A DNA stretch of 64,000 bases from an uncultured Ruminococcus sp. (GTDB lineage Bacteria; Bacillota; Clostridia; Oscillospirales; CAG-272): contig CACYWW010000004.1 of assembly GCA_902778145.1 (NCBI GenBank), forward strand, positions 45,611-109,610, given 5' to 3'. This document shows, piece after piece, positions 49,449-60,931 of the stretch (the first letter of the stretch is position 1; the number at the start of each line of letters is the position of its first letter). Position numbers and translations under genes: made by a program. The notes beneath the pieces are model-generated. The model was not told where the DNA came from, made no database searches, and saw nothing but the letters and a program-made list of their open reading frames with translations.

Positions 49449-51371
49449 ATGATCAACGTAATACCAAGACCGAAAAAGGTAACGGAAAGAGACGGTAAGT
49501 GCGTTCCCGGGTATGTAACCTGCGACCCGAGGTTCAGCTCCGCGGCGCAGGCCTTCGACGTTTACAGAGAAGAGCTCGGTATCGGAACGGGTGACGCCGG
49601 CATAACCGCGTCATACGCGGATAACATTGAGCCCGGCGGATATGTCCTCTCGTGTACATCCGGGGGGATATCTCTCATAGCGTCGGATCTGCAGGGCGCG
49701 AACAACGGATTTTCGACCCTGCTTCAGCTTTTGTTCGCGGGCGGCGGAGAAGTACAGGCGGTCGATATCGAGGATGCTCCCGACTGTGAGTACAGAGGGC
49801 TTATGATCGACGCTGCGCGTATATGGCATCCGTTCGAATATCTTCTGAAATACGTGGATCTCTGCAGATATTACAAATTCTCATATCTGCATCTGCATTT
49901 CACCGACACACAGAGCTACACGCTTCCGTGCGCGGATTATCCGCTTTTGCCGACCGAGGGCAGGCACTATTCTTATGAACAGATAAAACAGCTCAACGAG
50001 TACGCGAACGCGCGCGGAATAAAAATAATGCCCGAGATCGACGTTCCCGGGCACTGCGATCCTTTTCTGAAGGCGTATCCCGACCTTTTCGGGCATAACG
50101 GCATCATCGGTTTCCATAAAGAGGTATTTGAAGCGTTCGAGAAGATATTAGGCGAGCTCTGTGATATGTTCCCGTTCTCGGACAGGATACACATCGGCGG
50201 AGACGAGGCTGATATCAGGCAATGGCTCAACTGCGAAAAATGCAGGGAATACGCAAAGGAGTGCGGGATCCCGGTCGACGCGGACGAGAGGATGTCGTCG
50301 GAGCGTATACTCGCGTCGTTCGTCGCAAAGCTTTCCGATATCGTTATAAGACACGGTAAGATTCCGGTCGTCTGGGAGGGCTTCTGCCGCGGCGTGAATT
50401 ATCTCGTGCCTCATACGACGGAGGTCTTCTCCTGGGAAAACTTCTATCAGACGACGCCTGAGCTCATCGAAGAAGGATATACGCTCATAAACGGCTCGTG
50501 GAGCCCGAACTATATCGTATCACCGGGCGTCATGTGGAGCGTAAAGGACTGCTTCGACTGGGATATATTCACGTTCAGACCGGTACATCCGCAGTCGCCG
50601 TATATCGGATCGACGCTCAAGGTGCCCCCGTATGATAAAATGATCGGAGGACAGCTGCTTTCCTGGGGCGACTTCGGAGCGAGATCCGAACACCCGAAGC
50701 GACATATCATCGTTGAGTTCAATAACGTCGCGCAGCGCGCCGCGGCGACCGCCGAAAACACGTGGAACAGGGAAAAGATCGTTTCGTTCGATGAATTCTC
50801 CGTTTCTCACGGCATCCACACATCAGCCGCCGCCCGTCTTTTCAACTACAGAAGGATGAGAACGGATCACGTCGTATTGAGACCGTTCAAAGCGTCGGAC
50901 AAAGCCGACGCCAAAGAGTACTGCGTGTCTTTGAAGGACGAGGCTTTTGAGGCATTTGATGAAGAGAAGAGCGACGCGTTCGTTGACGCCTGTATCGCGA
51001 ATACGGCAAAGGTACAGTCGAATAATTACAATTTCGCTGTCGTTCTCAATAATAAGGTAATAGGCGGATGCAACATATCCGTGTCCGACGACGGCCTTGA
51101 GGGCGACCTCGGATGGTTCATACATAAGGATCATCAGAACAAAGGATACGCGACGGAGGCCGGCAGAAAGCTTCTTGAATTCGGATTTGATCATCTCGGA
51201 CTTCACAGGATCACGGCGCACTGCCATGTCGACAACGCGCGGTCGATCAAGGTGATGGAGAAGCTTGGTATGAGACGCGAGGGAAGGCTTGTAAAGGATC
51301 ACAGATACAAAGGCGGCGTATGGGGCGACTCGTACGTATACGCAATACTTGACGAGGAGTATATAAGATGA
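49449..51371 (+). CDS. GH20 beta-N-acetylhexosaminidase-GNAT acetyltransferase fusion protein
   Basis: 640 residues, no signal peptide. Residues 1-105: GH20b-type N-terminal domain (INVIPRPKKV, the usual opening). Residues 115-460: GH20 TIM barrel with GLMIDAARIWHP, MPEIDVPGHCDPF, IHIGGDEAD holding the catalytic Asp252-Glu253 pair, and LSWGDFG. Residues about 472-640: complete GNAT domain (DHVVLRPFKASDK, GWFIHKDHQNKGYATEAGRKLLEF as acetyl-CoA site, HCHVDNARSIKVMEKLGMRREG), RimJ/RimL-like. A cytoplasmic enzyme that might trim N-acetylhexosamine from imported glycans or muropeptides while the GNAT half acetylates a sugar amine or protein. The stop overlaps the LUD gene start by 4 bases. Confidence 0.88.
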   Translation: MINVIPRPKKVTERDGKCVPGYVTCDPRFSSAAQAFDVYREELGIGTGDAGITASYADNIEPGGYVLSCTSGGISLIASDLQGANNGFSTLLQLLFAGGGEVQAVDIEDAPDCEYRGLMIDAARIWHPFEYLLKYVDLCRYYKFSYLHLHFTDTQSYTLPCADYPLLPTEGRHYSYEQIKQLNEYANARGIKIMPEIDVPGHCDPFLKAYPDLFGHNGIIGFHKEVFEAFEKILGELCDMFPFSDRIHIGGDEADIRQWLNCEKCREYAKECGIPVDADERMSSERILASFVAKLSDIVIRHGKIPVVWEGFCRGVNYLVPHTTEVFSWENFYQTTPELIEEGYTLINGSWSPNYIVSPGVMWSVKDCFDWDIFTFRPVHPQSPYIGSTLKVPPYDKMIGGQLLSWGDFGARSEHPKRHIIVEFNNVAQRAAATAENTWNREKIVSFDEFSVSHGIHTSAAARLFNYRRMRTDHVVLRPFKASDKADAKEYCVSLKDEAFEAFDEEKSDAFVDACIANTAKVQSNNYNFAVVLNNKVIGGCNISVSDDGLEGDLGWFIHKDHQNKGYATEAGRKLLEFGFDHLGLHRITAHCHVDNARSIKVMEKLGMRREGRLVKDHRYKGGVWGDSYVYAILDEEYIR

Positions 51372-52010: not shown

Positions 52011-52952
52011 ATGGCTGTTTACGGATCGATAGAGGAGCTGATCGGAAACACCCCGCTTCTGAGGCTTTCAGCGGTAGAGCGGGAATACGGAACGAAAGCA
52101 AAGCTTTACGGAAAGCTCGAATACCTGAATCCCGCGGGATCCGTCAAGGACAGAGCCGCGCTCGGGATGATAGACCGTGCGGAGGCGGAGGGAAAACTCG
52201 TCCCCGGCTCAGTCATCATTGAGCCCACGTCCGGCAATACCGGCATAGGTCTTGCGGCGATCGCCGCGGTAAGAGGATACCGTACCGTGATCGTCATGCC
52301 CGAGACGATGTCTGAGGAGCGCCGTGTACTCATGAAGGCGTACGGCGCGGAGCTTGTACTGACAGACGGCTCGAAGGGTATGCGCGGCGCGATCGAAAAA
52401 GCGGAAGAGCTGGCGGCGAATACTGAGAATTCATTTATCCCGTCGCAGTTCACCAATGAGGCGAACGCCGAAGCTCATTTCAAAACCACAGGCCCCGAGA
52501 TATGGGCTGATACGTACGGGTCGGTCGATATTTTCGTCGCCGGCGTCGGGACCGGCGGAACGCTGACTGGAGTCGGAAAATATCTCAAATCAAAAAGGAA
52601 GGAAATAAAGATCGTCGCGGTAGAACCGTCTGATTCCCCGGTCCTTTCCGGCGGCGCGCCGGGACCGCACGGGATCCAGGGGATCGGCGCCGGATTCGTA
52701 CCAGAGGTGCTCGATACGGATGTGATCGACATGACATTCACTGTCTCGCTTGATGACGCGTACGAAGCCGGAAGGATCATGGGCAGACGCGAGGGCGTGC
52801 TTGTCGGGATTTCATCGGGTGCGGCGCTTTACGCAGCGGTACAGCTGGCGAAGCTTGACGAAAACGCCGGCAAGACGATAGTCGCTCTGCTGCCCGATAC
52901 GGGCGACAGATATCTGTCAACGGATATGTTCAGAACGGAGGATGCAGAATGA
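52011..52952 (+). CDS. cysK: cysteine synthase (O-acetylserine sulfhydrylase)
   Basis: 313 residues, PLP fold type II. Schiff-base lysine in NPAGSVKDRAALGM (about Lys42), phosphate loop PTSGNTGIG, substrate loop GVGTGGTLTG, and GISSGAALYAA near the C-terminus. Makes L-cysteine from O-acetylserine and sulfide. No serine acetyltransferase gene is next to it. Overlaps the lipase gene by 4 bases. Confidence 0.95.
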   Translation: MAVYGSIEELIGNTPLLRLSAVEREYGTKAKLYGKLEYLNPAGSVKDRAALGMIDRAEAEGKLVPGSVIIEPTSGNTGIGLAAIAAVRGYRTVIVMPETMSEERRVLMKAYGAELVLTDGSKGMRGAIEKAEELAANTENSFIPSQFTNEANAEAHFKTTGPEIWADTYGSVDIFVAGVGTGGTLTGVGKYLKSKRKEIKIVAVEPSDSPVLSGGAPGPHGIQGIGAGFVPEVLDTDVIDMTFTVSLDDAYEAGRIMGRREGVLVGISSGAALYAAVQLAKLDENAGKTIVALLPDTGDRYLSTDMFRTEDAE

Positions 52953-54178
52953 AGATAAGGATCGTTTCCATGATTTTATCCGTCATCATTGTCGTTTCAC
53001 TGTCGGTATCATGCGGAAAAAACGGGGCAGGGGAGGAAAGCACCGTACCTGAGACTACGGTCAACGCTGACTTGACAACTGAAGCCCCGGATACGGAGCC
53101 TCAGACGGAAACCGAGCCGGAGACGGAAACGGAGCCTTTGACCGAACCCTCGACCGAAACGGAACCGGAAACGACCGATGAGGAGACCGTGCCTGTACCG
53201 GAGGATACCGGTATAACGGCGCTTTTACCCGAAAACAGCTCCGAGATCTCATATGATCTCGCGAAGGAGCTTCTGACGGTATGCACCGGCGGAGGTAAAT
53301 CACAGACCGTGTCCCTGCTAAACGAACGCGGCTTTGAACTCATCCTTGCGAAAAATTATGAAAAAGCGTATTCCGACAGGTCGCACACCTGCGCCTATAC
53401 GGTTTCACGCAAAGAAACCGACGGAAAACGGTTGTATCTTATAACGATAAGAGGGACGAGCGGAGGCGAATGGTATTCTAACATGGATATAGCGCCGTCA
53501 CATAAAAACGACACGCAGTATGCTGAAAACTTCATGCTCTGCGCGCAGGATATATATCTGTCCGTAAAGGATACGATCGACTCTGACGAAAACAGCTCCG
53601 TTATAGTATGCGGACACAGCCGCGGAGCCGCGGCGGCAAACCTGTTAGGCGTTCTTTTTGACGAGGTATACGACAGATCGCGCGTTTACGTTTACACGTT
53701 CGCAACGCCTGCGACGGTCCGCGGAGATGCGGCGGAAAAGGAATATGAGAATATATTCAATTTCATAAACGACAACGACATGGTGACTCATCTGCCGCCC
53801 GTTGAATACGGCTTCAGCCGCGCCGGAAAAGATATCATGCTCCCGGTCGATAAGACGGAGATCAAGCTGCTTGAATTCATGTCAGCGCTTTTCACGCTCG
53901 CGCCGGATATCGATTCTTATTATAATAAAAAGTATTCTCTGACCTCTCAGGGAACCGGTGACGACGGATTGTCTGTATTCGATATAATGTCGATGCTCGC
54001 CGGATCTCTTTCGGGGGGCGCCGCTCAGCTCGCCTCGCTTAAAGACATAGCGCCTGAAAGCGACCTTTTCAAGGCAGCCGCGGCGATCGGCGGTCTTTCG
54101 GCGGGACTCGCCGCTAATATGGGACTCGAGCACATGCCTTCAAGATATATGACGCTGATAGATCAGCTCGAAGGATAA
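52949..54178 (+). CDS. class 3 lipase-like lipoprotein
   Basis: 409 residues. Lipobox SLSVSC (Cys22), then a Thr/Glu/Pro-rich linker (about 30-80, ETEPETETEP-type repeats), then an alpha/beta-hydrolase domain. The nucleophile elbow VCGHSRGAAAANL holds Ser224; the Asp and His partners are plausibly in NFINDNDMVTHLPP. Strong match in style to lipase class 3 (Mbeg1-like DUF2974). Probably a surface esterase or phospholipase. Last gene of the operon starting at GH20. The TEP linker is similar to the tail of the PASTA kinase. Confidence 0.85.
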   Translation: MKIRIVSMILSVIIVVSLSVSCGKNGAGEESTVPETTVNADLTTEAPDTEPQTETEPETETEPLTEPSTETEPETTDEETVPVPEDTGITALLPENSSEISYDLAKELLTVCTGGGKSQTVSLLNERGFELILAKNYEKAYSDRSHTCAYTVSRKETDGKRLYLITIRGTSGGEWYSNMDIAPSHKNDTQYAENFMLCAQDIYLSVKDTIDSDENSSVIVCGHSRGAAAANLLGVLFDEVYDRSRVYVYTFATPATVRGDAAEKEYENIFNFINDNDMVTHLPPVEYGFSRAGKDIMLPVDKTEIKLLEFMSALFTLAPDIDSYYNKKYSLTSQGTGDDGLSVFDIMSMLAGSLSGGAAQLASLKDIAPESDLFKAAAAIGGLSAGLAANMGLEHMPSRYMTLIDQLEG

Positions 54179-54691: not shown

Positions 54692-55516
54692 ATGGAAGAA
54701 TTCAAAAAGAAAGCTATAGAAATGCTGAGCTCATACGGCGGCAAGATACTGCTCGCGATCGCCGTGCTCGTAGTCGGACTTCTTGTTATAAAGCTTTTGA
54801 AGCGCGTTGTAAAAAAACTGCTTGAAAAGTCAAAGCTTGACGGCACCGTCAAAAGCGTGATCCGTAATATAGTGAAGATACTCCTGTATCTCGTGCTTAT
54901 CGTCGGCATAATCGAGATACTCGGTGTATCCATGTCAAGCGTTGTTGCCGTCATCGCATCATGCGGGCTTGCCGTCGGTCTTGCGCTACAGGGAGCGCTC
55001 GGAAATCTCGCGGGCGGTCTTATGATACTGATATTCAAGCCGTTCAAGGTTGGCGACTTCATAGAATCGACCGGAGCCGAAGGTACGGTAAAGGATATAA
55101 GCATATTCTACACCACGATAATGACGATAGACAACAAGCAGATATTCGTACCGAACGGAGATCTGATGAACGCGAATGTCACTAATTTCTCTGTCGCGGA
55201 GAAACGCAGAGTTGATCAGGATTATAAGATAACGAACGATATCGACGCGGAGCTCGTCAAATCCGTTCTGCTTGACGCGGCGTCAAAAACGGAAGGCGTC
55301 TTATCAGATCCTAGACCGTTTGCGCGTATGACCGCGGTGGACGACGATACATATATTTTCACGGTCAGGGCGTGGTGTGACACTCCGAGATACTGGGACG
55401 TATACTTCGATCTTATCGAGAATTGCAGTAAAGCTCTTGCCGACAACGGTATCGACGATCCCGAGGAGAGGATAGCTGTAAGACTCGTAAAAGAAGACCG
55501 GGATGAAGAAGGATAA
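54692..55516 (+). CDS. mscS: small-conductance mechanosensitive channel (MscS family)
   Basis: 274 residues, close to E. coli MscS in length. TM helices about 18-36, 58-80 and pore TM3 84-112 with the Gly/Ala-rich VIASCGLAVGLALQGALGNLAGG. Beta domain IFKPFKVGDFIESTGAEGTVKDISIF, then the vestibule alpha/beta domain. GGAGG upstream of the ATG. Closer to canonical MscS than the gene at 29091, to which it is only distantly related. Tension-gated solute release. Confidence 0.93.
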   Translation: MEEFKKKAIEMLSSYGGKILLAIAVLVVGLLVIKLLKRVVKKLLEKSKLDGTVKSVIRNIVKILLYLVLIVGIIEILGVSMSSVVAVIASCGLAVGLALQGALGNLAGGLMILIFKPFKVGDFIESTGAEGTVKDISIFYTTIMTIDNKQIFVPNGDLMNANVTNFSVAEKRRVDQDYKITNDIDAELVKSVLLDAASKTEGVLSDPRPFARMTAVDDDTYIFTVRAWCDTPRYWDVYFDLIENCSKALADNGIDDPEERIAVRLVKEDRDEEG

Positions 55517-55607: not shown

Positions 55608-56009
55608 ATGCAGATCCTGATAGCCGAGGACGAAAGACCGCTCGCAAAAGCCGTAAAGAAGATCCTTGAACAAAAAGGATATTTTGTCGACGCTGTGTAT
55701 GACGGTACGGACGCCGTTGAATACGCAAAAAGCGTCGATTACGATCTCATCATACTCGACGTCATGATGCCCGGATACGACGGATTTGAGGTCGTCAGGA
55801 TCCTGCGTGAAAAAGGCGTAGGTACTCCGGTCCTTATGCTGACGGCGCGATCCGCAGTATCCGACAAGGTGACGGGACTGAATACAGGCGCGGACGACTA
55901 TATGACTAAGCCGTTTGACACGGAGGAGCTTCTCGCAAGAGTAGCGGCGCTCACGCGCCGCAGAGGAAAGGAAGGTGAATTATTTGAAATTACTTTTCAC
56001 CGCGTTTGA
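55608..56009 (+). CDS. stand-alone response regulator receiver domain protein
   Basis: 133 residues. Intact receiver: acidic pocket Glu7-Asp8, phosphoacceptor Asp51 (IILDVMMPGYDG), Thr79 and Lys101 (DDYMTKPFD). The sequence is of the OmpR branch up to the linker ALTRRRGKEG, then ends after a few residues with no DNA-binding domain. A TATAAT at 55567-55572 and GGGG before the ATG start the operon. Its last 35 bases overlap the next gene in another frame. It could be phosphorylated by another kinase or small phosphodonor and act by protein contact. Confidence 0.85.
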   Translation: MQILIAEDERPLAKAVKKILEQKGYFVDAVYDGTDAVEYAKSVDYDLIILDVMMPGYDGFEVVRILREKGVGTPVLMLTARSAVSDKVTGLNTGADDYMTKPFDTEELLARVAALTRRRGKEGELFEITFHRV

Positions 56010-56574
56010 CAGGGATCTGCTCACGGGCTGTGCCGCGTGTCTGCGCGCTCGCGGCTATGAAGTGACAGAAGCGTTCGACTGCCCGTCAGCCGTCGAGCTT
56101 GCGTCGTCGGAACGCTTTGACGCCGCGATAGTCGATATCAGCCGGCGTGATCGGGACGTTTCCGGACTGCAGCGTCTTCTGCTTGATTCGGATGTGCCGG
56201 TGATAGCGCTCACGGAAAAGGAAGACAGCGTCAAAAGGCTTACGAGCGCCCCTGTTGCGTGTTCGTATCTTTGCCATCCGTTCACCCCCGATGAGCTCGC
56301 CTTCAGGCTTGAGGCTACGCTCGATAAAGCGGGCAGGGAAACGAGGATCGGAGGAGATGGCTCCGGGATCCTGATACGCGGATTCACTTTAAACAATAAA
56401 GTAAGGGTAACGGGTGAGGAGATAGATCTTCTGACGGGAAAAGCCGATAACAACGGTCGGGATCCGTATGTATACGTGTTATCGCTTGAGCGCAAGCTGC
56501 GTTCGATCGGGTCTTCGCTCCGTATAACGTATGAAAAAAACGAAGGGTACAGATTGGTGGATGACAATGAGTAA
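55975..56574 (+). CDS. degenerate response regulator (pseudo-receiver plus shortened winged helix)
   Basis: 199 residues from GTG 55975 (TTG 55984 is an alternative; both have AGGA/AAGG upstream). Residues 4-115 follow receiver topology: Asp54 and Thr80 are present but the invariant Lys is His101 (YLCHPFTPDEL), and the acidic pair is reduced to Asp12/Asp14. Residues about 127-199 resemble an OmpR C-terminal domain with the middle deleted: ILIRGFTLNNKVRVTGEEIDLL, then YVYVLSLERKLRSIGSSL and ITYEKNEGYRLV, matching the end of a winged helix. DNA binding may be altered or lost. Overlaps both neighbours. Confidence 0.75.
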   Translation: MNYLKLLFTAFDRDLLTGCAACLRARGYEVTEAFDCPSAVELASSERFDAAIVDISRRDRDVSGLQRLLLDSDVPVIALTEKEDSVKRLTSAPVACSYLCHPFTPDELAFRLEATLDKAGRETRIGGDGSGILIRGFTLNNKVRVTGEEIDLLTGKADNNGRDPYVYVLSLERKLRSIGSSLRITYEKNEGYRLVDDNE

Positions 56575-57763
56575 AGCGAGAAAAAAATTCGTAATATACG
56601 CCGCCGTGTCGCTGTTTGTCCTGATCGCCGTGCTTTTGTTCGTCATAAACATGATGGGTTTCACGATGGCTGCTCAGGACGCGGACAGGATAACCTCGAT
56701 GATCGCTTCGGGCAACGGAGAATTCGCGGCGCGTGAATCCTCTGAATTCAAACCGGAAAAGCGCGGTCCGATGGGCGTTGACTCACCGGAGATCAGATCC
56801 AGCGTGAGATATTACACGTTTCGCTTCGATAAAAAGGGCAACGGCGAAAAGATAGCGTTCAATATTTCCGCCGTGTCGGAGGAGCAGGCGAAAACCGTCG
56901 CCGCGTCTCTGCTCGGTGAAAATACCGGCTGGGTCAACACGACGTACAGGTACAGAGTATACCGTCACGACGGATTCGATTACGTGACGGTCATAGATTA
57001 CGGAAGAGAATTGCTGCAGGCTTACAGAACGCTGACAGTATCGGTCATAGGCGCGCTCATCTGTATAGCGGTTAGCGTCGTATTCCTGACGGCCGTCGGA
57101 AAGAAGCTCTTCAAACCGCTTGAAGAAGCCGACAGAAAGCAGAAGAATTTCATTAAGGAAGCCGAACGCAGTCTGAAGGTGCCGCTTACGGTGATCAGCA
57201 GCGATACCGAGCTTATCGAGCGCGAATTCGGATCCGGGGAGAGAACTCAGTCTATCAACCGCCAGATCAAAAAACTGACGGAAATAACAAAGCAGCTCCA
57301 CTCTCTCTCGATCCTCGACGAGACAGGAGAAAACAAAGAAAAGTGCGATCTGTCAATGCTGCTCCTTTCGGCGACGGACAGGAAAAAGAACGCGTTTCAG
57401 GAAAAGGGGATCGCTCTTGAGGTGACAGCCGATACCGGCGTTACGGTCAGCGGCGATGCTGCCGCACTTAACGGGATGATACAGGAGATCGTTGAAAACG
57501 CGCTGAAATTCTCACTGACCCGCGCTTCGTTCGAGCTGAAAAACGAAAACGGACTTGTCAGATTCACCTCGTCTAACGATACCGACCTGAAGACGGGCTC
57601 GACCGATCAGATCTTCGACAGATTCACGAGACTTGAAAACGCAAAGGGAAAAGCCGGGAACGGACTCGGCCTGTCATACGTAAAAGACGCTGTGAAGGCT
57701 CATAACGGAAGGATGAGCGCCGGCGTCGCGGACGGCGTATTCACGCTCAGGATAACGCTTTGA
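56567..57763 (+). CDS. sensor histidine kinase homologue lacking the phospho-accepting histidine
   Basis: 398 residues from the ATG at 56567 (TGGTGG upstream; overlaps previous stop); ATGs at 56531 and 56561 are alternatives. TM1 about 9-30, extracytoplasmic domain 31-152, TM2 155-177. The H-box region reads FIKEAERSLKVPLTVISSD where F-x-x-x-x-S-H-E-L-R-T-P-L-T is expected: the His is Arg201 (codon 57167-57169) and the Glu is Ser202. The ATPase domain keeps the N-box (EIVENALKFS), F-box (IFDRFTRLE) and G2 box (GNGLGLSYVKDAVKAHNG); the G1 box is of the weak clostridial type. Likely a pseudokinase or ATP-dependent conformational switch. Confidence 0.85.
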   Translation: MSKARKKFVIYAAVSLFVLIAVLLFVINMMGFTMAAQDADRITSMIASGNGEFAARESSEFKPEKRGPMGVDSPEIRSSVRYYTFRFDKKGNGEKIAFNISAVSEEQAKTVAASLLGENTGWVNTTYRYRVYRHDGFDYVTVIDYGRELLQAYRTLTVSVIGALICIAVSVVFLTAVGKKLFKPLEEADRKQKNFIKEAERSLKVPLTVISSDTELIEREFGSGERTQSINRQIKKLTEITKQLHSLSILDETGENKEKCDLSMLLLSATDRKKNAFQEKGIALEVTADTGVTVSGDAAALNGMIQEIVENALKFSLTRASFELKNENGLVRFTSSNDTDLKTGSTDQIFDRFTRLENAKGKAGNGLGLSYVKDAVKAHNGRMSAGVADGVFTLRITL

Positions 57764-57777
57764 CGGAGGCGAATCAA

Positions 57778-58512
57778 GTGGATAAGAACAATAATCCCGT
57801 CATAGTCGAAAATCCCGTCGTCGTTATGAAGCGCTACGAGCTGAAATACATCATCAGCCGCGAGCAGGAGCTTTTCTTCAGGGAAAGCATAAAGGATCAT
57901 ATGCAGCCGGACAGCTTCGGGCTGACTTCGATCGGTACGCTGTATTACGACACGCCGGATTACAGACTCATCAACGCGTCGATAGAGAAGCCGCTTTTCA
58001 AGGAAAAGCTCAGACTCAGATCATACGGGCTCGCGACGGACGAAACACCGGTTTTCCTTGAGCTGAAGCGCAAGGCGTACGGTATAGTATACAAACGCCG
58101 CGTACAGTCGACGATACCTCTTGTCAAAAAATTTCTTGACGGTGAGGGCGATATCTGCGCCGGAGGCCAGATAAACCGCGAGATCACGTATTTCAGGGAC
58201 CATTACGGCGCGCTTGCGCCTACCTGCCTTATAATCTACGACAGAACGGCGTTTTTTGAGCCGGGAGGAGATCTGAGGTTCACGATCGACAACGATCCCA
58301 GATATCGTGTGGACGATCTTGATCTGCGTGTATCTATGAAAGGAACGTCTCTTCTGCCGCCCGGATATTCCGTACTCGAGATAAAGGTACAGGAAGCGAT
58401 GCCGCTGTGGCTCGCTCATATCCTTGACAGCGGCAAAATTTACAAAGCGTCTTTTTCCAAATACGGAGAAGCATATAAAAAACAGATCCTTCAATCAAAA
58501 GCGATCATATAA
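57778..58512 (+). CDS. VTC domain protein (polyphosphate polymerase-like tunnel fold)
   Basis: 244 residues from GTG 57778, which has GGAGG eight bases upstream; TTG 57760 overlaps the kinase stop but lacks one. Tunnel-fold residues of the VTC family all visible: MKRYELKYII (ExK), LYYDTPDYRL, KEKLRLRSYG, FLELKRK, YKRR, IYDRTAF, FTIDND, SVLEIKVQEAMPLWL. Yeast Vtc4 makes polyphosphate from ATP with this fold; bacterial VTC-domain proteins in such operons are not well characterised. No TM or signal peptide. DUF4956 gene follows after 13 bases and is its usual partner. Confidence 0.88.
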   Translation: MDKNNNPVIVENPVVVMKRYELKYIISREQELFFRESIKDHMQPDSFGLTSIGTLYYDTPDYRLINASIEKPLFKEKLRLRSYGLATDETPVFLELKRKAYGIVYKRRVQSTIPLVKKFLDGEGDICAGGQINREITYFRDHYGALAPTCLIIYDRTAFFEPGGDLRFTIDNDPRYRVDDLDLRVSMKGTSLLPPGYSVLEIKVQEAMPLWLAHILDSGKIYKASFSKYGEAYKKQILQSKAII

Positions 58513-58525
58513 CGGAGGTTTTTAA

Positions 58526-59197
58526 ATGTTTGACTCGATCTACACATCTGCGGTAACGGTCTCGCAGTTCTTTATCATGGCGGGCGTCGCGCTCGTCTCC
58601 GGTCTGCTTTATTCATGGCTCATGTCGTTCCGTATCAGATCGACCAAGAGATTCTTTATCGTCGTCGGTCTCATACCTTTCATCGTTTCCGCGGTGATAA
58701 CGTTCGTCAACGGCAACATAGGCGCGGGCGTTGCGATCGGCGGCGCGTTCAGCCTTATAAGATTCCGTTCCGCTCAGGGTACAGCCGACGAGATCGCGGC
58801 GATTCTGATAGCGATGGGCGCCGGCATCCCGTTCGGCATGGGATACATAGCGTACGGCGTGATCATCCTTGCCGCTCTTGCCGTTATATATTTCCTCGTT
58901 TCGATGCTTCCCGTGTTCGAGCACAAAAGCATGACGGCCGATAAGCTGTTAAGGATCACCATACCGGAATCGCTTGAGTATCACGATGTATTCGACGATA
59001 CGTTCGCGCATTATCTCAGATCATACGAGAGCGTCGGCGTAAAGACCACGGGCATGGGCTCCATGTTCCGTCTTTCCTTCAAAATACAGATGAAGGACAG
59101 CCGCGAAGAAAAAGCGTTCATAGATGAACTCCGCACAAAGAACGGCAATCTTGAGATCGCCATCACGCCTTACGTTGATGTTCAGAATCAGCTTTAA
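58526..59197 (+). CDS. DUF4956 membrane protein
   Basis: 223 residues. TM segments about 12-32, 40-60, a glycine-rich GAGVAIGGAFSLIRFRSAQGTADEIAAI region, and two more about 92-130. The SLIRFRSAQGT motif is the DUF4956 hallmark. C-terminal ~95 residues soluble (ITIPESLEYHDVFDD ...) with an ACT/ferredoxin-like pattern. GGAGG before the ATG. Found repeatedly next to VTC-domain genes, suggesting a membrane partner or channel for the VTC protein product. Confidence 0.88.
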   Translation: MFDSIYTSAVTVSQFFIMAGVALVSGLLYSWLMSFRIRSTKRFFIVVGLIPFIVSAVITFVNGNIGAGVAIGGAFSLIRFRSAQGTADEIAAILIAMGAGIPFGMGYIAYGVIILAALAVIYFLVSMLPVFEHKSMTADKLLRITIPESLEYHDVFDDTFAHYLRSYESVGVKTTGMGSMFRLSFKIQMKDSREEKAFIDELRTKNGNLEIAITPYVDVQNQL

Positions 59198-59209
59198 GGA
59201 GAATTTTGT

Positions 59210-60931
59210 ATGATAAAAAAGGTGATAGCCCTGCTTCTTTCCGCGATCACGGCGTTCGTTTTCGCGTCGTGCAAAGGCTCCGGCGGATCCTCGTCTTCCG
59301 CCGGGAACGCCTCGGCTGCCGATGAAGAAGCGGAACAGATAATAACCGCGGAATACTTTTCCGACGGCGACTTCAAAGACGTTGCATCCGAGACGGAAAA
59401 CGCCGTGATAACGCTTGACGGATCATCGGGTACCATATCCGATACGTCGAGAGGCAGCTCCGGATCGAACGTCACCATAACGTCGAAGGGGATATACAGG
59501 ATAACCGGCTCATCCGAAAACGTTTCCGTCGTGGTGAACGAGAAGAACAGATCCGGCAACATATATCTGATACTCGACGGCGTAACGATGGAAAATTCCA
59601 ACTATTCGTGTATAAGCGTAGAGGCGGCGGATAAAGTCATAATACAGCTCGAGGGAGAGAACCGTCTAACGTATTCAACAGCATCGTCCGATTACGACGG
59701 CGCAATATATTCAGAGGATGATATAACGGTAAACGGTGAAGGCTCGCTCAGCATTATCTCGTCACTGCACGGTATCGTATGCAAAAACGACGTTAAGCTT
59801 ACGGGCGGCACGGTCAGCATCGAATCCGGATCCATCGGCATCAAAGCGAACGATTCAGTGCGTGTCGGCGGCGCCGACTTAACGGTAAAAGCAGGACACG
59901 ACGGAGTTCAGATCAATAATTCCGACGGCGACTCGTTCTTCCACATGGAAAAAGGCAGCGTGAACATAACCGCCGGATATGACGGGATAGACGTCGGGAC
60001 CGCGTCGGATAAGATGAGCGGTTTCGTCAGTCTTACCGGCGGCACCATTACCGTTACCGCCGGCGGCGGATCCGGTAATTCAAAAAGCTCCGAAACGTCA
60101 CAAAAAGGCATAAAGTGCGACGGAAAAATAATACTGAGCGGCGCCGACCTGACGGTCAGCTCCGCGGACGACGCGCTCAACAGCGCGGCCGAGATCAATA
60201 TAATGAACGGAAGCGCCTCGCTTTCGTCAAGCGACGACGGTATCCACGCGGATAATATCCTCAGTATAAGCGGAGGAGAAGTCACTGTATCGAAGTCATA
60301 CGAAGGGCTTGAGGCGTATGAGGTAATCATATCCGGCGGAAACGTCAGCGTCGTCTCGTCGGACGACGGCATAAACGCCGCCGGCGGCTCGGATACGCAG
60401 TCGTCGGAAACTTCTCCGGACAGATGGAGCGCGGGGTCGACGGGCGGAAAAGTCACCGTTACGGGCGGCACGCTTTACGTCAACTCCTCGGGTGACGGGA
60501 TCGATTCCAACGGCTCGATCTATATAACCGGCGGACTCATCATAGTTGAAGGGCCCGAAAACGACGGAAACGGCGCTCTGGATACGGGCGACGGAAACGG
60601 CTGCGTAGCCGAGATAACCGGAGGGACCGTTCTCGCAACGGGGTCAGCCGGCATGGCCTTCAATTTCAACAGCGGCACACAGTGCTCGGCGCTCCTCGGC
60701 GTATCCGGCTCAGCCGGCGATGTGATAACCGTCGACGACGGATCCGGCTTCACATGCACGGCGACAAAGAGCTTTGAATGCCTTGTGTACTCGTCTCCTT
60801 CCATGACAAAGGGAAGCACGTATACCGTGACCGCAGGCACGTCGTCCGCGTCGGCTGATTTCTCATCGGGCCTTTACTGCTCGAACGTTCAGTCGAACGG
60901 ACCGGGCGGCGGCCCCGGCGGAAAAAGATAA
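59210..60931 (+). CDS. Cthe_2159-type carbohydrate-binding beta-helix lipoprotein
   Basis: 573 residues. Lipobox FVFASC (Cys20), then Gly/Ser-rich linker. From about residue 65 a long parallel beta-helix with repeats such as VIIQLEGENRLTYS, DDITVNGEGSLSIIS, KNDVKLTGGTVSIES, and several DDGI(N/H)A turns, as in the Cthe_2159 polygalacturonate-binding family. Ends in a Gly/Pro-rich tail (GPGGGPGGKR). Surface-exposed glycan-binding protein; last gene of the operon. Confidence 0.85.
   Translation: MIKKVIALLLSAITAFVFASCKGSGGSSSSAGNASAADEEAEQIITAEYFSDGDFKDVASETENAVITLDGSSGTISDTSRGSSGSNVTITSKGIYRITGSSENVSVVVNEKNRSGNIYLILDGVTMENSNYSCISVEAADKVIIQLEGENRLTYSTASSDYDGAIYSEDDITVNGEGSLSIISSLHGIVCKNDVKLTGGTVSIESGSIGIKANDSVRVGGADLTVKAGHDGVQINNSDGDSFFHMEKGSVNITAGYDGIDVGTASDKMSGFVSLTGGTITVTAGGGSGNSKSSETSQKGIKCDGKIILSGADLTVSSADDALNSAAEINIMNGSASLSSSDDGIHADNILSISGGEVTVSKSYEGLEAYEVIISGGNVSVVSSDDGINAAGGSDTQSSETSPDRWSAGSTGGKVTVTGGTLYVNSSGDGIDSNGSIYITGGLIIVEGPENDGNGALDTGDGNGCVAEITGGTVLATGSAGMAFNFNSGTQCSALLGVSGSAGDVITVDDGSGFTCTATKSFECLVYSSPSMTKGSTYTVTAGTSSASADFSSGLYCSNVQSNGPGGGPGGKR

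Follow-up and report, generated by a model that had tools for sequence, protein, structure and literature searches.

A candidate pseudo-two-component pair encoded with a VTC-DUF4956 module in uncultured Clostridia

The locus and its four-gene unit

The DNA analysed here (the window) is a stretch of 64,000 nucleotides from an uncultured Ruminococcus sp. (contig CACYWW010000004.1, positions 45,611 to 109,610), and is part of a 2.4 Mb draft genome of 84 contigs that is 88% complete. At 55608..60931 it carries six open reading frames (ORFs), all on the forward strand, which encode two response regulators (RR1 and RR2), a histidine kinase (HK2), a VTC-domain protein, a DUF4956 membrane protein and a Cthe_2159 lipoprotein. 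The ORFs and the Pfam matches agreed with the initial annotation, which had described six genes in one direction with overlaps or gaps of at most 15 bases; the junctions are of this size given the likely starts, which were read from the DNA sequence. Four of these genes, RR2-HK2-VTC-DUF4956, are a conserved unit of gut Clostridia. The unit suggests a bacterial signal switch without phosphate passing, and on balance its pseudo-two-component pair is probably the regulatory part of an envelope polymer machine, VTC-DUF4956, acting by protein contact. The six genes were as follows.

55608..56009, forward strand: RR1 remnant, an intact OmpR-type receiver of 133 amino acids (aa), output domain lost, as judged by Pfam and canonical residues
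55975..56574, forward strand: RR2, apparent pseudo-receiver with a winged helix lacking helix 2; likely start TTG 55984 or GTG 55975
56567..57763, forward strand: HK2, predicted membrane pseudo-histidine kinase with His replaced by Arg and ATP-site motifs kept; likely start ATG 56567
57778..58512, forward strand: VTC-domain protein, presumed polyphosphate polymerase; likely start GTG 57778 after GGAGG, first possible start TTG 57760
58526..59197, forward strand: DUF4956 membrane protein, by the PF16316 profile
59210..60931, forward strand: Cthe_2159-type beta-helix lipoprotein (PF14262), outside the minimal unit

RR1 matched the Pfam family Response_reg with 111.2 bits and nothing C-terminal to it, and RR2 matched the same family with 26.4 bits, below the cut-off of 30.2. 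For HK2, HATPase_c scored 39.1 bits (cut-off 26.4) and HisKA 16.9 bits, below its cut-off of 26.9. The VTC protein (136.3 bits) consists of the VTC domain alone, with no SPX domain and no transmembrane (TM) domain. DUF4956 reached 35.1 bits, above the curated cut-off of 30.6, and the lipoprotein 215.5 bits with Cthe_2159; a related solved structure of the latter is 4peu (E 2.5e-19). In NCBIfam, HK2 matched general kinase models, none of them near its cut-off among the best 25 matches listed, and the VTC protein, DUF4956 and the lipoprotein had no match at E <= 0.01.

A search of 59 genomes, the window's own included, with the VTC protein gave matches in 41, and 40 stretches were fetched. Several of these loci carried, in one direction, a canonical pair (RR1 and HK1), a Cthe_2159 protein, a regulator and kinase of the degenerate type, VTC and DUF4956. 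An alignment of 12 window-type kinases was then used for one scan of genome contigs, in which 243 stretches matched a pattern and 167 encoded relatives of HK2; the locus counts below rest on the best 80 of these 167. The scan patterns, TVID[QY]GRE and [DE]Q[IVA]FDRFT, lie outside the His region, so the sample was not selected for loss of His, but FDRFT does favour the lid of the HK2 type. The titles of the 80 loci named uncultured Clostridia-type lineages, and the animal sources, where named, were ruminants.

Among the genes found, the order RR2-HK2-VTC-DUF4956 was unbroken and on one strand in 80/80 loci, and all four genes were found in 70. VTC was not found in L077 (contig end 35 bases past HK2) or in L136 (122 bases past it). 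Six loci had no scored RR2, namely L141 and five that start at a contig edge (L073, L081, L103, L145 and L150), with a partial RR2 visible in the first three of the five. DUF4956 was missing in five, in L077, L136 and L108 by the contig end, and also in L103 and L107. In L109, DUF4956 downstream of VTC reads as two separate ORFs (105 and 127 aa), through either a frameshift or an error of assembly. RR2 and HK2 overlapped or were separated by at most 3 bases in 74/74 loci, the HK2-VTC distance was at most 30 bases in 75/78, and the VTC-DUF4956 distance at most 30 bases in 65/75. A Cthe_2159 protein was encoded in 47/80 loci, directly downstream in 22 and directly upstream in 21. Beyond this protein and the canonical pairs, no gene family occurred in more than 7/80 loci, and these neighbours gave no hint at the polymer. 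Furthermore, many direct neighbours looked housekeeping-like from their N-termini, which were read by eye. The four genes therefore stand as a unit on their own.

Residues of the kinase HK2 and the regulator RR2

The residue counts for HK2 cover 81 proteins (80 loci and the window), and 24 canonical kinases from the same loci served as the comparison. At the phospho-His position, HK2 of the window has Arg (ERSLKVPLT). His was absent there in 79/81, the position holding Lys in 24, Asn in 14, Arg in 11, Ser in 11, Gln in 9, Thr in 5, Ala in 3, His in 2, Met in 1 and Gly in 1, and seven further HK2 proteins that were read also had no His at the site. The phosphatase Thr was Thr in 2/81, and both His and this Thr were kept in 24/24 canonical kinases. 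The entropy of the phospho-site was 2.80 bits, the 88th percentile of 398 positions. It was 0 at the Pro and Gln of the dimerisation and histidine phosphotransfer (DHp) domain, the N-box Asn, the F-box Phe, the lid Leu and Asn and the G2 glycines; the N-box Asn, the G2 glycines and the lid Leu and Asn were thus each present in 81/81. The Asp of the G1 box was Asn in 80/81 HK2 and also in 23/24 canonical HK1, so this change is no mark of loss. The two His-bearing kinases (L137 and L146) are nested inside the HK2 clade, and their RR2 partners have no Lys.

The kept ATP-site residues would suit a kinase that phosphorylates another residue or protein (for example on Ser/Thr or Tyr) and in this way controls VTC, DUF4956 or RR2, and some GHKL kinases do phosphorylate Ser/Thr or Tyr. 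Against this, the ATP lid is rebuilt as a motif specific to the clade: Tyr in 24/24 HK1 corresponds to Thr in 76/81 HK2, the Arg after Leu and Asn stands in 23/24 HK1 but in only 23/81 HK2, and the canonical RFYR lid is not kept. Nor is there a conserved replacement acceptor at the His site. No replacement His was found in the DHp domain of HK2 either, the sole column of the alignment with more than 30% His lying near the C-terminus. Such a kinase activity is considered improbable.

The AlphaFold model of HK2 had a mean predicted local distance difference test score (pLDDT) of 81.7 and a predicted template-modelling score (pTM) of 0.45. It starts with a long helix, continues with an alpha/beta domain on the outside and another long helix that leads into the DHp domain, and ends with the ATP-binding domain. 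The fold matches in the PDB include CpxA, HK853, DivL (4q20, rank 15) and NifL-NifA (9qq6, rank 46), the last two of which employ such a scaffold with no relay. TM-scores for the entire query were low (about 0.3), which is to be expected of a bent model with several domains. Most of the matches are active kinases; hence those to DivL and NifL provide precedent and not function. By its residues and predicted fold, HK2 is a pseudo-histidine kinase, which lost the phospho-His and kept the HK fold. In phylogenetic analysis, with 37 of the 81 sequences used, HK2 formed one clade (support 100/100, and 100% of 200 bootstrap trees) on a long stem. The clade occurs in several Clostridia families, and six canonical kinases join it through a branch that is not firm (94/89).

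RR2 was counted in 75 proteins (74 loci and the window); three of them have gaps, and 72 were scored for the five canonical residues. In the window's RR2, the acidic pair and the Lys are gone, and the Asp and Thr are kept. The active-site Lys was found in 0/75, being replaced by Leu, Tyr, Phe or His, the second acidic residue was never Asp (0/75), and the phospho-Asp was Asp in 36/75. In 72/72 scored proteins, RR2 keeps 0-2 of the five residues. The canonical regulators from the loci (27, the RR1 of the window included) kept Asp and Lys in 27/27. According to PMC12632262, a pseudo-receiver lacks at least one of the five conserved residues, and RR2 is by this definition a pseudo-receiver in its sequence. 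An ordinary His-Asp relay between HK2 and RR2, as far as these residues tell, cannot run.

The output half of RR2 is altered as well. The model of the window's RR2 (mean pLDDT 92.4, pTM 0.89) has two helices instead of three in the output domain, helix 2 being the missing one, and its best PDB matches are OmpR-type regulators such as PrrA. The three observations of the initial annotation, a receiver without output domain (RR1), an altered regulator with a shortened winged helix and a kinase without the His, were thus all recovered by Pfam, residues and model. RR2 could be a phosphorylation-independent, DNA-binding regulator of its operon, which HK2 sequesters or releases at the membrane, with VTC-DUF4956 as transcriptional target only. 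The matches to DNA-binding OmpR-type regulators are in agreement with this, as are a winged-helix remnant of at least 50 residues in 57/75 RR2 and the conserved residues in its recognition-helix region. However, helix 2 is missing, and 18/75 RR2 have no output domain at all while the rest of the unit is unchanged, so that this role is judged rather unlikely.

The ratio of nonsynonymous to synonymous substitution rates (dN/dS) was 0.07-0.28 for HK2 (8 close pairs, 7 finite values) and 0.10-0.23 for RR2 (6 pairs, one with saturated dS), which indicates, at the sequence level, purifying selection on both. The ratios between the window and its genus relatives say less, since synonymous sites are near saturation there. 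For comparison, dN/dS was 0.02-0.09 for VTC (8 pairs) and 0.01-0.18 for DUF4956 (6 finite values). Could HK2 and RR2 nevertheless be non-functional relics carried along with VTC-DUF4956? The rapid divergence of RR2 and the absence of the pair beside some close VTC genes would fit, but dN/dS lies well under 1 in close pairs, the ATP-site residues and a new lid motif are invariant, and open frames and order are kept in 80 loci; we regard relics as most improbable. Simple decay of the pair was rejected in view of the recurrent residue changes, the dN/dS values and the single HK2 clade, and a frameshift or local error behind the altered kinase and regulator in view of the same changes in other loci. 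The initial annotation had likewise argued against simple decay, and the pair is indeed tied to VTC-DUF4956 across genera and families with its ATP-site residues kept. It had also proposed looking for the same losses in regulators beside other VTC-DUF4956 loci, and the same deviations recurred in dozens of them.

Linkage to VTC and the neighbouring canonical pairs

With thresholds of E <= 1e-60 for HK2 and E <= 1e-80 for close VTC, HK2 was found in 27 of 395 genomes of the family, close VTC in 33 and both in 26. The table of HK2 against close VTC (26/1/7/361) gave p = 3e-33, without correction for kinship. In the sole family genome with HK2 and without close VTC (G154), HK2 lies 106 bases from a contig edge. 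HK2 was also present in 15/394 genomes of the order (families f1, f10, f17, f20 and f23) and in 2/291 genomes of the class, one of which is the window's own. Where compared, HK2 adjoins a VTC at least 64% identical to that of the window, and VTC at 46% identity or less has no HK2; between 58 and 68% identity, some VTC are without HK2. No HK2-RR2 pair away from VTC was found except at contig edges. The dependence is one-way, HK2 going with VTC and not the reverse, which suits a regulator of VTC.

The VTC profile matched yeast Vtc4 with E 1.7e-14. The charged residues R20, E22, K24, R80, R82, E96, K98, K100, K107, R109, R157, R168, E202 and K204 (residue 1 at window position 57775) were invariant in 29/29 VTC proteins; the initial annotation had called the charged residues of the window's VTC complete, and all these positions are present in it. 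Most of them are presumably tunnel-lining positions. The VTC product is, from the sequence, probably polyphosphate. For yeast Vtc4, R264, R266 and E426 are given as inactivating positions (PMC9911596). CotH, polyphosphate polymerase and DUF4956 genes were reported beside pel clusters (PMC7112168), VTC and CotH genes in a Clostridium perfringens locus (PMC2879425), and binding of Cthe_2159 proteins to cellulose and polygalacturonic acid (PMC6712302). The window's own genome holds a second, distant VTC-DUF4956 pair (L072 6735-8137, contig C5), whose VTC is 25% identical; the gene for a 1053-aa protein with LTD and CotH domains follows the pair, and no two-component genes were scored beside it.

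A canonical RR-HK pair lay within reach upstream in 16 of the 49 loci with enough upstream sequence. The other 33 had none there, although 5 of them (L083, L101, L106, L119 and L138) have one elsewhere in the locus. In a genus relative (L075, also in L035) the order was MscS-RR1-HK1b-RR2-HK2-VTC-DUF4956-Cthe_2159. RR1 of L035 and L075 is a full OmpR-type regulator of 223 aa, and HK1b has an intact His. Relatives with an intact H-box kinase and an OmpR regulator at the locus, against which the initial annotation had set its reading, thus do occur, but these genes stand beside the degenerate pair and not in its place.

In the window, the sequence matches RR1 up to where the receiver ends (GCGCTCACGCGCCGCAGAGG) and continues directly with the beginning of RR2, a junction that rests on one draft assembly. 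By its sequence, RR1 therefore looks like what a deletion left of a canonical pair, the kinase of which (HK1b) is gone. The best-scoring match of HK1b in the window's own genome (88% complete) had 27% identity and none was above 32%, and relocation of HK1b within the genome was accordingly rejected. RR1 and HK1b are both absent in L074, so that with the full pair in L075 and the remnant in the window, the canonical pair varies in the genus and RR2-HK2 stays. The RR1 receiver is intact, with 76% identity to that of L075 and dN/dS of 0.07 at saturated dS; its conservation mostly reflects the time before the deletion, and a residual function may persist. A role for RR1 as third partner of RR2 and HK2 was rejected, since it looks like such a remnant. 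Of the dismantled three-part system that the initial annotation had proposed, the degenerate state of RR2 and HK2 stood, and RR1 proved to belong to a separate canonical pair. An MscS-type channel gene lies directly upstream of RR1 in the window (54692-55516, forward strand) and beside the unit in L074 and L075; the channel as tension sensor of the unit was dropped, as MscS occurs in 2/80 loci.

These neighbours raise the possibility that HK2 and RR2 modulate a genuine relay: HK2 would form heterodimers with a canonical kinase or compete for its regulator, and RR2 would act as a decoy or pair up in heterodimers, which is what has been suggested for CmrT of CmrRST. Such models are laid out in PMC12632262, HK1 and HK2 can be aligned in their outside domains, and the upstream pairs in 16/49 loci would supply a partner. 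However, the 33 loci without an upstream pair within reach do not suit this explanation, the neighbour kinases belong to at least three lineages (HK1, HK1b and the L078 type), and in the window HK1b is deleted, with its own-genome matches as low as stated above. The partner kinase might be encoded elsewhere; overall, modulation of a relay is thought unlikely.

Proposed mechanism and comparison with known systems

The reading of the pair as a regulatory part of VTC-DUF4956 builds on the anatomy of the locus, the loss of relay residues, the kept ATP-site residues, selection and linkage. From these we infer nucleotide binding, the contacts, the direction of control, the polymer, and HK2 and RR2 as regulatory subunits. 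HK2 would be a membrane receptor that senses an envelope signal with its small outside domain. The shape of its DHp and ATP-binding domains would depend on this signal and on the bound nucleotide, without self-phosphorylation on His. RR2 would dock on the DHp domain of HK2 and be released or reoriented without phosphorylation. The HK2-RR2 complex would then contact VTC or DUF4956 and switch the formation of the VTC product, and perhaps also its passage through the membrane, in a manner comparable to the hold of NifL on NifA or the gating of yeast VTC by SPX domains. In this specific form, with HK2 reading the envelope signal and the nucleotide state of the cell and directly opening or closing VTC and DUF4956 via a pseudo-receiver adaptor, the proposal is tentative. 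Control of polymer synthesis or export by conformational change driven by ATP, as put forward in the initial annotation, stays at the level of a proposal too.

Several findings weigh against such regulation by contact. The contact of HK2 or RR2 with VTC or DUF4956 is proposed from linkage, and no fusion of HK2 or RR2 with VTC or DUF4956 was found (3 multi-domain ORFs among 756, none with VTC). Close VTC occurred without HK2 in 7/33 family genomes, and VTC-DUF4956 without RR2-HK2 in the close relatives L042, L044, L176, L177 and L178. L141 has HK2-VTC-DUF4956 with no RR2 found, and L103 and L107 have RR2-HK2-VTC with no DUF4956 match in about 1.1 and 4.7 kb of contig after VTC. RR2 diverges fast (26-41% identity to that of the window), two of the 81 HK2 carry His, and the pTM of the HK2 model is low. 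In addition, the canonical pair beside 16/49 loci makes cross-talk with a real relay possible. In L042, L044, L176 and L178, a Cthe_2159 gene lies directly upstream of VTC-DUF4956, and the order is RR1-HK1-CBD-VTC-DUF4956 in L042 and L044. These four are natural controls for the contribution of the pseudo pair. The canonical paralogues that accompany the pair in some loci are natural controls as well.

The proposed system resembles several known ones in part. The mechanism closest to the proposed one is that of NifL in the Azotobacter NifL-NifA system. NifL has, like HK2, a kinase scaffold and a GHKL domain; that of NifL binds ATP/ADP without hydrolysis, and NifL controls its partner by direct contact (PMC9866876). 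NifL has PAS domains instead of a membrane-bound outside domain, keeps the conserved His and targets a transcription activator, whereas HK2 is predicted to span the membrane and its gene adjoins that of a VTC enzyme. In DivL of Caulobacter, as in HK2, the phospho-His is replaced and the other kinase boxes are kept, and DivL, without autokinase activity, binds a receiver, which shows that a kinase scaffold lacking the His can act as a sensor that binds a receiver (PMC4211667). However, that receiver, DivK~P, is functional and the one paired with HK2 is a pseudo-receiver; moreover, the DivL site is Tyr (Ala in one homologue), and the HK2 site has no preferred residue. CmrRST of Clostridioides difficile likewise has a pseudo-receiver regulator in an operon with two-component genes, but CmrS and CmrR are presented as a pair that is normal in other respects (PMC12632262), and HK2 is degenerate too.

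On the enzyme side, a signal-sensing domain gates the VTC polymerase in yeast (PMC9911596). The VTC of the window shares with the yeast enzyme the VTC/TTM catalytic domain and the kept charged residues; it differs in having neither SPX nor TM domain, and is known here from sequence alone. The cotH-polyphosphate polymerase-DUF4956 clusters beside pel in Streptococcus and Clostridia also combine a VTC-type gene with DUF4956 (PMC7112168). Compared with them, the six-gene operon of the window has no CotH and no pel, and its proposed control is by a pseudo-two-component pair.

Pseudo-kinases and pseudo-receivers are each already known (PMC12632262). The same source puts a missing His at 0.9% of HisKA domains, names only two non-orphan cases among the 20 atypical regulators covered there, and calls the mechanisms switching bacterial pseudo-receivers still a mystery. 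In titles and the starts of abstracts, with most subscription papers outside the search, no description was found of a conserved operon pair of pseudo-kinase and pseudo-receiver tied to an enzyme module, and no paper that settles the product and purpose of bacterial VTC-DUF4956 systems. The unit offers such a matched pair, which many species keep within a single operon and linked to one enzyme module, and makes testable the question whether a two-component pair can signal by nucleotide-bound shape alone. If the proposal is true, a whole two-component pair has come to serve as the regulatory subunits for an enzyme that consumes ATP. This would parallel in bacteria the SPX gating of yeast VTC and give a regulatory handle on bacterial VTC-DUF4956 systems.

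Two further ORFs of the window lie upstream of the locus on the forward strand. In the 640-aa ORF at 49449-51371, the catalytic domain of a GH20 hexosaminidase (114-441) is joined to a GNAT acetyltransferase at the C-terminus (475-609). The product of the ORF at 52949-54178 is probably a lipoprotein, with a stalk rich in Thr, Glu and Pro and a class 3 lipase domain (PF01764).

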